This document shows, piece by piece, positions 47,523 to 55,826 of a stretch of DNA of 64,000 nt. The translations under genes and the position numbers were made by a program. Where the stretch lies: contig NZ_JAFFIX010000003.1 in the NCBI RefSeq assembly GCF_016916835.1, forward strand, positions 124,001-188,000, given 5' to 3'. Origin of the DNA: Actinacidiphila bryophytorum (GTDB lineage: Bacteria; Actinomycetota; Actinomycetes; Streptomycetales; Streptomycetaceae). Position 1 is the first letter of the stretch. The number at the start of each line of letters is the position of its first letter. The notes under the pieces were generated by a model. That model had not been told where the DNA came from. It saw only the letters and a list, made by a program, of their open reading frames with translations, and ran no database searches.

Positions 47523-47816
47523 TCAACCGGCCAGATACCGCTCCACGGTGGCCACCTTGGAGTCCAGGCCGTCCGTGACGCCGGGCCGCAGATCCGCCTT
47601 GAGGACCAGCGACACCCGCGGTGCCCGCTCCTCGACCGCGGCGACCGCCCGCTTGACCACGTCCATCACCTCGTCCCACTCGCCCTCGACCGAGGTGAAC
47701 ATCGCGTCCGTGCGGTTCGGCAGCCCGGACTCGCGCACCACCCGCACCGCGTCGGCGACGTATTCGCCGACGTCCTCGCCGACGCCCAGCGGTGTGACGG
47801 AGAAGGCGACGATCAT
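47523..47816 (-). CDS. MTH1187/YkoF-type thiamine-binding protein
   Basis: 97-aa protein of the UPF0045/MTH1187 family (ferredoxin-like fold), whose members bind thiamine or related ligands. The N-terminus [32 protein letters not shown] and [22 protein letters not shown] are characteristic. The ATG at 47816 overlaps the stop of the DUF3817 gene by 4 nt (ATGA), so these two are translationally coupled. Confidence 0.88.
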
Positions 47817-48157
47817 GCGCCGACCGCCTGCTGCGCCTCGGCGCGGGCGGCCACGACCGCGTCCTCGCACTCGCGGGCGAGCGTGCGCTCGGCGAAGAAG
47901 CCGCCGGTCGGCAGGACCGACAGCACGAACAGCAGCGCCGCCCGGCCGAAGCCCCAGCGGGCGCGGTTCCAGGCCAGCGCCCACAGCACGACGTATCCGA
48001 CGAACAGCACGCCGTGCACCATGCCCATCACCGGCACCGCGTTGAAGTCGGTGGTGCGCTTGAGCACCGAGCAGACCAGCAGCAGCAGGAAGGAGACCGC
48101 CTCCGGGGCGGAGATCAGGCGCAGCCTGCGCAGAGCGCCGGCGGTCTTCAGGTCCAC
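47813..48157 (-). CDS. DUF3817 family membrane protein
   Basis: 114 aa from GTG 48157. About three transmembrane helices (roughly 17-34, 41-62 and 70-90), with the family pattern [35 protein letters not shown] and [12 protein letters not shown]. Function unknown. A paralog lies at 55485-55826. The strong Crp-like palindrome at 48236-48255 is about 80 nt upstream. Confidence 0.88.
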
Positions 48158-48374: not shown

Positions 48375-49190
48375 ATGAGCATCGACTGGGACCGCAGGCA
48401 CTGCGCCCGCAAGGGCCACATCACCTACGCGCCCGACGAGCTGCGGCTGCGCAGCCGGCTGCACGCGAGCACCGCCGTCGGCGAGGTGTGGCGCTGCCTG
48501 CGCTGCGGCGACTTCGTGCTGGGCGACCCGCACGGCACCGGCCCCGCCGACCGGGCACCGCTGGTGCCGCGCGGCCGGGCGCTGCGCGACCTGTTCATCC
48601 TGCGCTTCCTCGCGGTCGAGCGGATCCTGCGCGGACTGCTGATCGTGGTCGCCGCCTGGGCAGTGTGGAAGTTCAGCAACTCGCAGGACGCGGTGCGCAA
48701 GCTCTTCGAGGACGACCTCACCGCCTTCAAGCCGGTCGCCGACCACTTCCACTACGACCTGGACCACTCACCGGTCGTGGACACCATCCGCAAGACCTTC
48801 GACTACAAGAAGTCCACCCTGCAGATCGTCGCCGCGGCCCTGCTCGGCTACGCGCTGATCGAGATCATCGAGGGCTTCGGGCTGTGGTGGGCCAAGCGCT
48901 GGGCCGAGTACCTGACGGTCGTCGCCACCGCCGCCTTCCTCCCCCTTGAGGTCTACGAACTGACCGAGAAGGTCAGCTACTTCAAGATCGGCACCCTCGC
49001 GCTCAACGTGCTGGCCGTCCTCTACATCCTGCTCGGCAAGCGGCTGTTCGGCCTGCGCGGCGGGCACAAGGCCTTCGAGGCCGAGCGGCGCAGCGCCTCG
49101 CTCCTGGAGGTCAAGGAGGCGGCGGGCGAGAACGGCGAACCGCTCGAACCGCTGCCGGTACGCCCCCGCACCGCCGCCGACAGCAGCTGA
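48375..49190 (+). CDS. DUF2127 family membrane protein with N-terminal Cys-pair motif
   Basis: 271 aa from ATG 48375. The N-terminal soluble part (1-75) has a CLRCGD motif (near residue 41) and an earlier His/Cys in RRHCARKGH, resembling a small zinc site. About four transmembrane helices follow (for example ILRGLLIVVAAWAVW, TLQIVAAALLGYALIEIIEGFGLWW, VVATAAFLPLEVYEL and LALNVLAVLYILLG), then a charged tail. Three AIM24 genes follow with 0 to 3 nt gaps or overlap, so this is the first gene of a four-gene operon. Confidence 0.82.
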   Translation: MSIDWDRRHCARKGHITYAPDELRLRSRLHASTAVGEVWRCLRCGDFVLGDPHGTGPADRAPLVPRGRALRDLFILRFLAVERILRGLLIVVAAWAVWKFSNSQDAVRKLFEDDLTAFKPVADHFHYDLDHSPVVDTIRKTFDYKKSTLQIVAAALLGYALIEIIEGFGLWWAKRWAEYLTVVATAAFLPLEVYELTEKVSYFKIGTLALNVLAVLYILLGKRLFGLRGGHKAFEAERRSASLLEVKEAAGENGEPLEPLPVRPRTAADSS

Positions 49191-49193
49191 GCC

Positions 49194-49832
49194 ATGGCGA
49201 CCTTCCGGCTGCAGGGCACCCGGGTGCTGGCCGTCGACCTGGCAGGCGACGCGGTCAAGGCCAAGAAGGGCGCCATGGTCGCCTACGACGGCGAGATGAC
49301 GTTCAAGAAGATGACCGGCGGCGGCGAGGGCCTGCGCGGCCTGGTCACCCGGCGGATCACCGGCGAGGCCATGGCGGTGATGGAGGTCAAGGGCCACGGC
49401 ACCTGCTGGTTCGCCGACCGGGCCACCGAGATCAACCTGGTCGGGCTCACCGGCGACAAGCTGCACGTCGAGGCGAGCAACCTGCTGGTCACCGAGCCCT
49501 CGCTGCGCACCGGCACCACCTTCACCGGGCTGCGCGGCGCCTCCCAGGGCAACGGCCTGTTCACCACCACCGTCGAGGGCACGGGCCAGGCCGCGATCAT
49601 GTCCGACGGCCCCGCCATCGTGCTGCGGGTGACCGCCGGCACCCCGCTGGTGGTCGACCCCGGCGCCTACGTCGCCCACACCGGCAACCTCCGCCAGCAG
49701 CTGCGCTCCTCGGTCGGCCTGCGCACCCTGATCGGCGAGGGCTCGGGCGAGAGCTTCCAGATCCACTTCGAGGGCGAGGGCCTCGTCTACGTCCAGCCCA
49801 GCGAGCGCAACACGGTCGGGGGGCAGATCTAG
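49194..49832 (+). CDS. AIM24 family protein, copy 1
   Basis: 212 aa. AIM24/TerD-adjacent beta-rich domain (trimeric barrel-like, DUF124) with the recurring pattern AKKGAMVAYDGEMTFKKM, GTCWFADRATEINLVGLTGDKLHVEASNLLV and GEGLVYVQPSE. ATG 49194 is 3 nt after the upstream stop. Eukaryotic AIM24 is mitochondrial; the bacterial role is unknown. Confidence 0.88.
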   Translation: MATFRLQGTRVLAVDLAGDAVKAKKGAMVAYDGEMTFKKMTGGGEGLRGLVTRRITGEAMAVMEVKGHGTCWFADRATEINLVGLTGDKLHVEASNLLVTEPSLRTGTTFTGLRGASQGNGLFTTTVEGTGQAAIMSDGPAIVLRVTAGTPLVVDPGAYVAHTGNLRQQLRSSVGLRTLIGEGSGESFQIHFEGEGLVYVQPSERNTVGGQI

Positions 49833-50483
49833 GTGGGCTTCACCCGTATCAACTCCAAGCTGGTGGAGGCGCGCATCGTGCCCGGACAGCGGATGTTCAG
49901 CCAGCGCGGCGCCATGCTCGCCTACCGCGGCGCCGTCACCTTCACCCCCAGCATCGTCGGCGGGCAGGGCGGGGTCATGTCGATGATCGGCCGCCGGGTC
50001 GCCAACGAAGCGACCCCGCTGATGACCGTCGAGGGGGACGGCCTGGTGATGTTCGGCCACGGCGGCCACCACATCCACACCGTGGACCTCAGCGGCGAGA
50101 CCCTCTACGTCGAGGCCGACCGGCTGCTCGCCTTCGACGGCTCACTGGCCCAGGGCACCATGTTCATGGGCTCGCAGGGCGGTGTGATGGGCGTGATACG
50201 CGGCCAGGTCACCGGGCAGGGGCTGTTCACCACCACCTTGCAGGGCAAGGGCTCGGTCGCCGTCATGGCGCACGGCGGCGTCTTCGAACTCCCCATCACC
50301 CCCGGCCGCCCCGTCCACGTCGATCCGCAGGCCTACGTCGCCCACCGCGGCGACGTCCGCAACAAGCTCGCCACCGCCGTCGGCTGGCGCGAGATGGTCG
50401 GCCGCGGCTCCGGCGAGGCCTTCCAACTCGAACTCAGCGGCCAGGGCACGGTCTACGTACAGGCCTCGGAGGAGAAGCTGTGA
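49833..50483 (+). CDS. AIM24 family protein, copy 2
   Basis: 216 aa from GTG 49833, which directly follows the copy 1 stop. It has the same repeats: SQRGAMLAYRGAVTFTPS, GLVMFGHGGHHIHTVDLSGETLYVEADRLLAF and GQGTVYVQASEEKL. Its His-rich turn GHGGHHIH is not seen in the other copies. Confidence 0.88.
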   Translation: MGFTRINSKLVEARIVPGQRMFSQRGAMLAYRGAVTFTPSIVGGQGGVMSMIGRRVANEATPLMTVEGDGLVMFGHGGHHIHTVDLSGETLYVEADRLLAFDGSLAQGTMFMGSQGGVMGVIRGQVTGQGLFTTTLQGKGSVAVMAHGGVFELPITPGRPVHVDPQAYVAHRGDVRNKLATAVGWREMVGRGSGEAFQLELSGQGTVYVQASEEKL

Positions 50484-51196
50484 CCCACCCCGAAGGCCCG
50501 GTCGTCCACGACCCGTACACGCTGCCCGCAAACGACAACGTCAACCCGTACGCCTTCTGCGTCGACCTTGACGGCCAGTGGTTCCTGCAGAAGGGGAAGA
50601 TGATCGCCTACTACGGGCAGGTCGACTTCCACGCCATCGGCCACGGCCCGCTCGACCACCTCGTCGCCGCCAACTTCCACTCCCCGCTGCACGCCAGCGC
50701 CTGGGTCGTCGCCCAGGGCCGCGGCAAGATGCTGCTCGCCGACCGGGCCTACGACATCAACTCCTACGACCTGGACGACGGCAACCTCACCATCCGCTCC
50801 GGCAACCTGCTGGCATTCCAGCCGGGCCTGGCGCTCAAACAGTCGATCATCCCGGGCTTCCTCACCCTGATCGGCACGGGGAAGTTCGTCGCCGCCTCCA
50901 ACGGGGCCGTGCACTTCGTCGAGCCGCCGATCCGCGTCGACCCGCAGGCCCTCGTCGGCTGGGCCGACTGCCCCAGCCCCTGCCACCACTACGACCACGC
51001 CTACATGCGCGGCATCCTCGGCGGCATCAGGGCGCTCACCGGCATCGGCGGAGCCTCGGGTGAGGAGCACCAGTTCGAGTTCACCGGCGCGGGCCAGGTG
51101 CTGCTGCAGTCCACCGAGGAGCTGATGGCCGCGGCCGACACCGGCGGCGTCCCCGGCAGCGCCGGCCCCGGGGTGCCCGGCGCGGGCCTCGGCTGA
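50480..51196 (+). CDS. AIM24 family protein, copy 3 (divergent)
   Basis: 238 aa from GTG 50480, overlapping the copy 2 stop by 4 nt (GTGA). It is more divergent: a Pro/Asn-rich N-terminus, QKGKMIAYYGQVDF, GKMLLADRAYDINSYDLDDGNLTIRSGNLLAF, and a Cys/His cluster CPSPCHHYDH near residue 155 that could bind metal. The C-terminal 20 residues are Gly/Pro rich. Confidence 0.85.
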   Translation: MTHPEGPVVHDPYTLPANDNVNPYAFCVDLDGQWFLQKGKMIAYYGQVDFHAIGHGPLDHLVAANFHSPLHASAWVVAQGRGKMLLADRAYDINSYDLDDGNLTIRSGNLLAFQPGLALKQSIIPGFLTLIGTGKFVAASNGAVHFVEPPIRVDPQALVGWADCPSPCHHYDHAYMRGILGGIRALTGIGGASGEEHQFEFTGAGQVLLQSTEELMAAADTGGVPGSAGPGVPGAGLG

Positions 51197-51268: not shown

Positions 51269-51751
51269 ATGACCACCGAGACCGCCGAAAGCGCCGCCAC
51301 CTGGCTCACCGAGGAGGAGCAGCGCGCCTGGCGCATTCACCTCGACGTCAGCCGGCTGCTCATGTACCAGCTGGAGCGCGACCTGCAGCCTTTCGGCCTG
51401 ACCAACAACGACTACGAGATCCTCGTCAACCTCTCGGAGGCCGAGGACCACCGGCTGCGGATGAGCGACCTGGCCAAGTCGACCCTGCAGTCCAAGAGCC
51501 GGCTCTCGCACCAGATCACCCGCATGGAAGCCGCGGGGCTCGTCCGCCGGGAGAACTGCGAGTCCGACCGGCGCGGGCTGTACGCGGTGCTCACCGAGCA
51601 GGGCTGGGACACGATGCGCCAGGTCGCCCCGCGCCATGTCGCCTCGGTGCGCGAGCACTTCATCGACCTCATCCCGGCCGCGGACCTGGCGGCCTACCGC
51701 CAGGCCCTCACGCCCGTCGCCACCCACCTCCGCGCCAACCGCGCCCGCTGA
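51269..51751 (+). CDS. MarR family transcriptional regulator
   Basis: 160 aa. Winged-helix core LTNNDYEILVNLSEAEDHRLRMSDLAKSTLQSKSRLSHQITRMEAAGLVRRENCESDRRGLYAVLTEQG (about 45-115). There is no Shine-Dalgarno; a TAGAAT box and palindrome sit immediately upstream. A single Cys lies in the wing (RENCESDRRG), the position where oxidation-sensing MarR proteins sometimes carry one, but sensing is unproven. It follows the AIM24 operon, but the palindrome suggests its own promoter. Confidence 0.9.
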   Translation: MTTETAESAATWLTEEEQRAWRIHLDVSRLLMYQLERDLQPFGLTNNDYEILVNLSEAEDHRLRMSDLAKSTLQSKSRLSHQITRMEAAGLVRRENCESDRRGLYAVLTEQGWDTMRQVAPRHVASVREHFIDLIPAADLAAYRQALTPVATHLRANRAR

Positions 51752-54840: not shown

Positions 54841-55350
54841 GTGTCAAAGCCCCTGAGCCTGCCCTTCGACCCCATCGCCCGCGCCGACGAACTGTGGAGC
54901 CGGCGCTGGGGCGGCGTCCCGTCGATGGGCGCGATCACCTCGATCATGCGCGCCCAGCAGATCCTGCTCGGCCAGGTGGACGCGGTCGTCAAGCCGTACG
55001 GGCTGACCTTCGCGCGCTACGAGGCGCTGGTGCTGCTCACCTTCTCCAAGGCCGGCGAGCTGCCGATGTCCAAGATCGGCGAGCGCCTGATGGTGCACCC
55101 CACCTCGGTCACCAACACCGTGGACCGGCTGGTCGCGGCCGGCCTGGTCGACAAGCGCCCCAACCCCAACGACGGCCGCGGCACCCTGGCCTCGATCACG
55201 GACAAGGGCCGCGAGATCGTCGAGTCCGCCACCCGCGACCTGATGGCGATGGACTTCGGCCTGGGCGTCTACGACGCCGAGGAGTGCGCCGAGATCTTCG
55301 CGCTGCTGCGGCCGCTGCGGATAGCGGCGGGGGACTTCACGGAGGGCTGA
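54841..55350 (+). CDS. MarR family transcriptional regulator
   Basis: 169 aa from GTG 54841. Winged helix: LTFARYEALVLLTFSKAGELPMSKIGERLMVHPTSVTNTVDRLVAAGLVDKRPNPNDGRGTLASITDKG (about 55-125). It belongs to the MarR group whose genes lie next to acyl-CoA mutase genes in streptomycetes. A DUF3817 gene and icmA follow; these are plausible targets. Confidence 0.9.
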   Translation: MSKPLSLPFDPIARADELWSRRWGGVPSMGAITSIMRAQQILLGQVDAVVKPYGLTFARYEALVLLTFSKAGELPMSKIGERLMVHPTSVTNTVDRLVAAGLVDKRPNPNDGRGTLASITDKGREIVESATRDLMAMDFGLGVYDAEECAEIFALLRPLRIAAGDFTEG

Positions 55351-55471
55351 CGCCCGAGCTCCCGGAGTGGCCGGCCGAGGTACGAGGCCGTCCGCGGAGG
55401 GTGCGAGCAGGAAGACCGACAGACAGGCGGCGAGGGGCAGGGGTGAAATCCGGGGCCGGAAACGTACCGGT

Positions 55472-55477
55472 TAGGCT
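55472..55477 (+). promoter_or_regulatory. -10 box for a leaderless DUF3817 mRNA
   Basis: TAGGCT followed by 7 nt and ATG 55485, the same arrangement as in front of the preceding marR gene. Confidence 0.5.
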
Positions 55478-55484
55478 GCTTGCC

Positions 55485-55826
55485 ATGAAACACAGCGTGC
55501 TGACCCGGTACCGGGTGATGGCCTATGTGACCGGTGTCCTGCTGGTCGCGCTCACCCTCGCCGTCATCGGCAAGTACGTCCTCGACATCAGCGGCGCGGG
55601 CACCGCCACCACGGTGATCGGCTTCGCCCACGGCTGGCTGTACGTCGTCTACCTCGTCTTCGCCTTCGACCTGTGCTCCAAGGCGAAGTGGCCGCTCGGC
55701 CGGATGGCCTGGGTGCTGCTCGCCGGCACCGTTCCCACGGCGGCGTTCTTCGTGGAGCGCCGGGTCACCCGGGAGCTGTCCGGCAAGGTCGTGGCGCGCG
55801 AGCCCGCGGAAGCGGTCAGCGCCTAG
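55485..55826 (+). CDS. DUF3817 family membrane protein (second copy)
   Basis: 113 aa with three membrane helices: VMAYVTGVLLVALTLAVIG, VIGFAHGWLYVVYLVFAFDL and MAWVLLAGTVPTAAFF. It has the same FVERR end as the paralog at 47813-48157 (FFAERTL) and probably the same unknown function. A terminator-like hairpin follows. Confidence 0.88.
   Translation: MKHSVLTRYRVMAYVTGVLLVALTLAVIGKYVLDISGAGTATTVIGFAHGWLYVVYLVFAFDLCSKAKWPLGRMAWVLLAGTVPTAAFFVERRVTRELSGKVVAREPAEAVSA

Follow-up and report, generated by a model that had tools for sequence, protein, structure and literature searches.

A conserved AIM24 gene trio of actinobacteria, linked to Ter genes outside Streptomycetaceae and occasionally adjoined by a DUF2127 gene

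In the genome of Actinacidiphila bryophytorum, a gene for a DUF2127 membrane protein is followed by three tandem genes for AIM24 proteins, and this arrangement raises the question of which of the four genes belong together and what their products might do. The locus was analyzed within a window, namely the whole stretch of 64,000 nucleotides, in which the four genes and their flanking genes were assigned as follows.

47813 to 48157, minus strand: DUF3817 protein, divergent, upstream (PF12823, E 1.3e-24)
48375 to 49190, plus strand: DUF2127 membrane protein, 271 aa (PF09900, E 2.6e-42, 144.9 bits)
49194 to 49832, plus strand: AIM24 copy 1 (c1), 212 aa (PF01987, E 5.4e-37, 127.9 bits)
49833 to 50483, plus strand: AIM24 copy 2 (c2), 216 aa (PF01987, E 1.5e-35, 123.2 bits)
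50480 to 51196, plus strand: AIM24 copy 3 (c3), 238 aa (PF01987, E 2.8e-11, 43.9 bits)
51269 to 51751, plus strand: MarR-family regulator, 72 nt 3' of c3 (PF12802, E 1.8e-13)

All four proteins scored above the Pfam gathering scores of 25.7 bits for AIM24 and 24.3 bits for DUF2127, and the labels of MeaB, mutase and DUF3817 were likewise confirmed by Pfam on the window genes. The coordinates and the gaps of 3, 0 and -4 nt given by the first-pass annotation were reproduced: DUF2127 precedes c1 by 3 nt, c2 starts directly after the stop codon of c1, and c3, which has a GTG start, overlaps the stop of c2 by 4 nt. This spacing suggests that DUF2127 and the three AIM24 genes may be co-expressed. 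The reported divergence of the copies also held, since sequence identity was 43% between c1 and c2 and 34% between c1 and c3 and each copy formed its own well-supported group across families, and the window sequences did contain the Cys motif in DUF2127, the GHGGHHIH turn in c2 and the CPSPCHHYDH segment in c3. The count of three AIM24 copies was correct at this locus but not genome-wide, where the total was seven, comprising one singleton, the c1-c2-c3 trio and a second, TerD-linked trio; TerD was matched 16 times in this genome, and DUF2127 was encoded once. Among named sequences, c3 was closest to those of Actinacidiphila strains (up to 95% identity). As to a phage or defence origin, the four proteins were compared with PHROGs and PADLOC at E 0.01, and nothing matched.

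An AlphaFold2 model in which c1 and c2 were joined into a single read-through chain (16 rows) recovered the AIM24 fold, with Foldseek matches to 1PG6 (3.3e-9) and 1YOX (1.0e-6); its domains were not confidently placed (pTM 0.48, mean pLDDT 68.3). In fold and Pfam family, the window proteins thus resemble the AIM24/TIGR00266 family, which includes 1YOX, 1PG6, yeast Aim24 and plant PAWH1/2. They differ from it, however, in that they constitute a hetero-set whereas the family is represented by a single gene, and in that they fall short of the TIGR00266 equivalog cut-off of 96.6 bits, with 53.4 bits for c1, 34.8 bits for c2 and no match for c3. According to the passage cited from a 2019 paper, the physiological function of bacterial AIM24 proteins was wholly unknown (PMC6677890).

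The conserved actinobacterial unit at this locus is the AIM24 trio, without DUF2127, and the trio is real, well conserved and functionally placeable. Among the matches listed, the best 80 were taken as named loci, a set biased to near relatives and belonging nearly entirely to Streptomyces, Actinacidiphila or their kin; all 80 of these carried the complete trio, and in 76 of the 80 each of the c1-c2 and c2-c3 junctions measured -4 to +2 nt. The same interval was observed in 20 Streptomycetaceae regions, picked for contrast and not randomly, at 19/20 c1-c2 junctions and 19/19 c2-c3 junctions, one region ending within the trio. In a survey of the class (197 genomes), a strong c3 match (>300 bits) was obtained in 26 genomes, namely all 16 Streptomycetaceae and 10 others. 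The trio locus was inspected in nine of these 10, and the order c1-c2-c3 was kept in 9/9 loci from four other families. A survey of the phylum (296 genomes) further identified the trio in two genomes from outside the class, again with the order kept (2/2). The order was therefore constant in 11/11 inspected loci outside Streptomycetaceae, although these are not 11 independent cases because only five families are represented. Two irregular loci were observed: in one of the genomes outside the class, two tandem c3 genes make the trio a quartet (L139:8673-9919), and in one Streptomycetaceae region c3 is matched by two segments that overlap but differ in frame, as a frameshift or an assembly error would produce (L038:4555-5240).

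The loci outside Streptomycetaceae, the picked Streptomycetaceae regions and singleton AIM24 loci were compared with the same probes. Outside Streptomycetaceae, Ter genes were detected near the trio in 9 of the 11 loci (L117, L118, L119, L120, L121, L123, L124, L139 and L140), lying some 12-17 kb off, on L142, in the case of L119 and consisting of a single TerD gene in L120; the searched stretches of L116 and L122, including L141 and L144, contained no Ter gene. Pfam identified TerD, DUF475/TerC, StiP, PRTase_2, TRSP, PELOTA_1 and C-C_Bond_Lyase neighbors at L117, L118, L120, L121, L123 and L124, while the Ter neighbors of L119, L139 and L140 were named by tblastn alone. In a plasmid collection, 20 records had a c3 match, and in the three that were inspected (57-58% identity), all from Mycobacteriales (Mycolicibacterium alvei, Tsukamurella tyrosinosolvens and Nocardia farcinica), the trio was located inside a ter cluster. 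Ter genes were found at none of the 80 named loci among the matches listed (flanks of at most 10 kb, shorter in some), at none of the 20 picked Streptomycetaceae regions and at none of nine singleton AIM24 loci. In the present genome, no ter cluster stands beside the trio, and the genome's own ter cluster (C1:566000-585000, L147) is without AIM24; a Ter role here is thus carried over from relatives. The statement that no function is known for this gene set holds as to experiment; the gene context, however, points to the Ter stress system. In L117, L118 and L119, which belong to one family, a redox/signaling module adjoins the trio, consisting of a response-regulator-thioredoxin-reductase-like fusion, a cyclic-nucleotide-binding HATPase protein and a UBP-type zinc finger.

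In 2012, Anantharaman, Iyer and Aravind reportedly described stress-response gene clusters of the Ter (tellurium) type that include AIM24 proteins. That AIM24 is linked to ter genes has thus already been published, as stated in the passage cited here (PMC5822837, citing Anantharaman et al. 2012). Compared with those clusters, the trio of the relatives is similar in lying beside TerD, DUF475/TerC, StiP, PRTase_2/TRSP/PELOTA and C-C lyase genes, whereas it differs in that its AIM24 genes belong to three distinct subfamilies, with a fixed order and tight spacing, and in that the Streptomycetaceae loci were seen without adjoining ter genes; the 2012 paper may already describe the trio. Among the matches listed in a literature search, no paper on AIM24 trios of actinobacteria was recognized by its title or the opening of its abstract.

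On these grounds, we consider it more likely than not that a 1:1:1 AIM24 hetero-oligomer is a unit of the Ter system, a cytoplasmic scaffold by which TerD-type proteins are tethered to the inner membrane face. The products of c1, c2 and c3 would assemble together, most likely as a flat-faced ring of three AIM24 subunits, and would be made in step through translational coupling. A hetero-oligomer is proposed because the constant order, tight coupling and old 1:1:1 orthology fit it, and a 1:1:1 ring because, in the passage cited (PMC6677890), another group modeled a flat-faced AIM24 homotrimer on the same crystal templates, 1PG6 and 1YOX. The earlier proposal of a hetero-oligomer associated with the membrane protein is thereby kept for the AIM24 trio, but not for DUF2127. 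The scaffold would presumably serve the Ter stress response in Streptomycetaceae as well. An ordered, tightly spaced and Ter-tied trio offers a concrete, testable assembly for bacterial AIM24 proteins.

An alternative is that DUF2127 joins the three AIM24 proteins in a single membrane complex encoded by one operon. This would agree with the 3-nt gap between DUF2127 and c1 in this genome, with the presence of DUF2127 in all 10 genomes of the window's genus in a family survey, and with the gap of 0-6 nt in 11 of the 12 named loci among the matches listed at which DUF2127 adjoins the trio. DUF2127 is, however, an occasional neighbor of the trio and not a fixed partner, and in relatives the AIM24 copies are usually found apart from the membrane protein: among the matches listed, the trio had no DUF2127 beside it in 64 of the 80 named loci (12 adjoining, 4 unscored), and DUF2127 was present in 9/20 picked Streptomycetaceae regions, at -1 to +108 nt, and missing from 11/20. 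It occurred in 0/11 trio stretches outside Streptomycetaceae, three of those genomes carrying it elsewhere. In the class survey, 53/197 genomes contained DUF2127, and it coincided with a strong c3 match in 8, against 7.0 expected (Fisher p 0.64; the genomes are not independent). Within these eight the two were adjacent only in the present genome, being separated by approximately 22-27 kb in three other Streptomycetaceae and placed on different contigs in four. Furthermore, 5 of 16 DUF2127 regions outside Streptomycetaceae (L230, L231, L232, L234 and L239) had meaB and/or methylmalonyl-CoA mutase beside DUF2127 and no AIM24, the trio of one of these five genomes (G241) lying on another contig; the other 11 regions had neither meaB nor mutase. 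Because co-occurrence is at the chance level and DUF2127 stands by meaB/mutase without AIM24, its adjacency to the trio looks secondary. The invariant motif of DUF2127 is also retained away from AIM24: in a chosen subset of 37 aligned proteins, a further one having been omitted for a residue that could not be read, C10, G14, H15, C41 and C44 (C-x3-G-H ... C-L-R-C) were invariant in 37/37, linked to AIM24 or not. Taken together, the four-protein complex appears quite unlikely; tight spacing in one genome is a poor proof of a complex, and the first gene of the supposed operon is an occasional neighbor.

It could also be argued that the trio of Streptomycetaceae has taken a new job in the meaB/mutase neighborhood under MarR, untied from the Ter system. 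Among the matches listed, the trio stretch of the 80 named loci contained MarR in 80/80, DUF3817 in 79/80 and meaB in 72/80, with the lack of Ter genes described above. Such retention may nevertheless be mere synteny, c1-c3 are still clean 1:1:1 orthologs of the ter-linked trio, and 3 of the 20 picked regions (L052, L053 and L054) carried the trio but neither meaB nor this MarR. MarR was missing from these three and from L047, which meets a contig end; the meaB/MarR neighborhood is therefore not universal in Streptomycetaceae, as L052-L054 lack both, and we regard a change of function as rather unlikely. The reading of c2 and c3 as metal-binding subunits, through the His-rich turn and the Cys/His cluster, draws on the constancy of the latter within Streptomycetaceae, where C164, C168, H169, H170 and D172 of c3 were invariant in 14/14 aligned sequences and, among the matches listed, 78 of 79 matched named-locus stretches read WADCPSPCHHYDH and one WADTPSPCHHYDH. 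In 19 wider c3 sequences, C164 and H170 were each still present in 84%, but C168 in 47% and H169 in 68%, C168 being kept in 2/10 rows from other families, and H76, H79, H80 and H82 of c2 were kept in 39, 33, 67 and 44% of 18 sequences, respectively. The constant core of c3 was GWADxPxP plus D172. Because the c3 cluster and the c2 turn vary in the wider alignments, they are not read as family-wide metal sites; metal binding as the role of these subunits is thus most improbable, whereas the c3 cluster, which holds within Streptomycetaceae, may represent a lineage-specific metal site.

Returning to the Ter scaffold, its extension to the present locus would run as follows. At the majority of the Streptomycetaceae loci covered, the trio lies apart from ter genes, in the meaB/mutase neighborhood with MarR behind it, having probably moved into a neighborhood where, in other genomes, DUF2127 independently resides. 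The juxtaposition of the two in some lineages, including this one, would then have followed, in an order of events that we infer. The DUF2127 protein itself has an N-terminal Cys/His segment resembling a zinc ribbon, followed by three strongly hydrophobic regions according to hydropathy. In its model (pLDDT 81.6), a small N-terminal domain precedes a mainly helical remainder, and the Foldseek search for fold relatives gave no usable PDB relative (best E 0.092). In one locus, the intact DUF2127 gene has a second, fragmentary copy nearby, broken into several pieces (L230:5326-5741).

The history of the copies was assessed in a 73-row tree from which the canonical singleton AIM24 of this genome was left out. 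In this tree c1 (97/87), c2 (100/95) and c3 (100/100) each formed a single group, as did each gene of the TerD-linked trio, with three rows from two families. When the singleton, which has a very long branch, was included, the c2 sequences no longer grouped together (2 changes; 26% of bootstrap trees). The second trio of this genome, on contig C30 (L145), resembles the first in having three tandem AIM24 genes, and its counterparts were found in L132 and L133; it differs in that its first member is fused to TerD (shown by Pfam for the genome's own copy and by tblastn within one frame for L132 and L133) and in that none of its genes pairs with c1 or c2. Grouping of c1 or c2 with any TerD-linked trio gene was rejected in six AU tests (p 5.7e-5 to 0.005), most pairs having been chosen after the trees were seen, whereas grouping of c3, which is on a long branch, with two of these genes was not rejected (p 0.27 and 0.22; two tried). 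Given the rejected c1 and c2 pairings, the two trios do not appear to stem from a single, simple triplication, at any rate where c1 and c2 are concerned.

Finally, the C-terminal end of c3 was compared. A conserved tail of the RRFGL type was present in 68 of the 80 named loci (L148-L227) among the matches listed, and the window c3 (end near 51193) is without it. With a hand-set pattern, tailless c3 was commoner where DUF2127 adjoins (13/21) than in the others (7/78); once phylogeny was considered, with four independent pairs on supported branches, the difference was not significant (sign test, median p 1). A broader scenario, in which obligate three-gene AIM24 rings arose at least twice in actinobacteria as a membrane-face Ter scaffold and the c3 tail of Streptomycetaceae is a docking tail replaceable by a captured DUF2127, is put forward as very doubtful. 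Apart from these genes, the window contains two DUF3817 genes (47813-48157, minus strand, and 55467-55826, plus strand) and two MarR genes (51269-51751 and 54841-55350), an arrangement suggestive of a duplicated MarR-DUF3817 pair.
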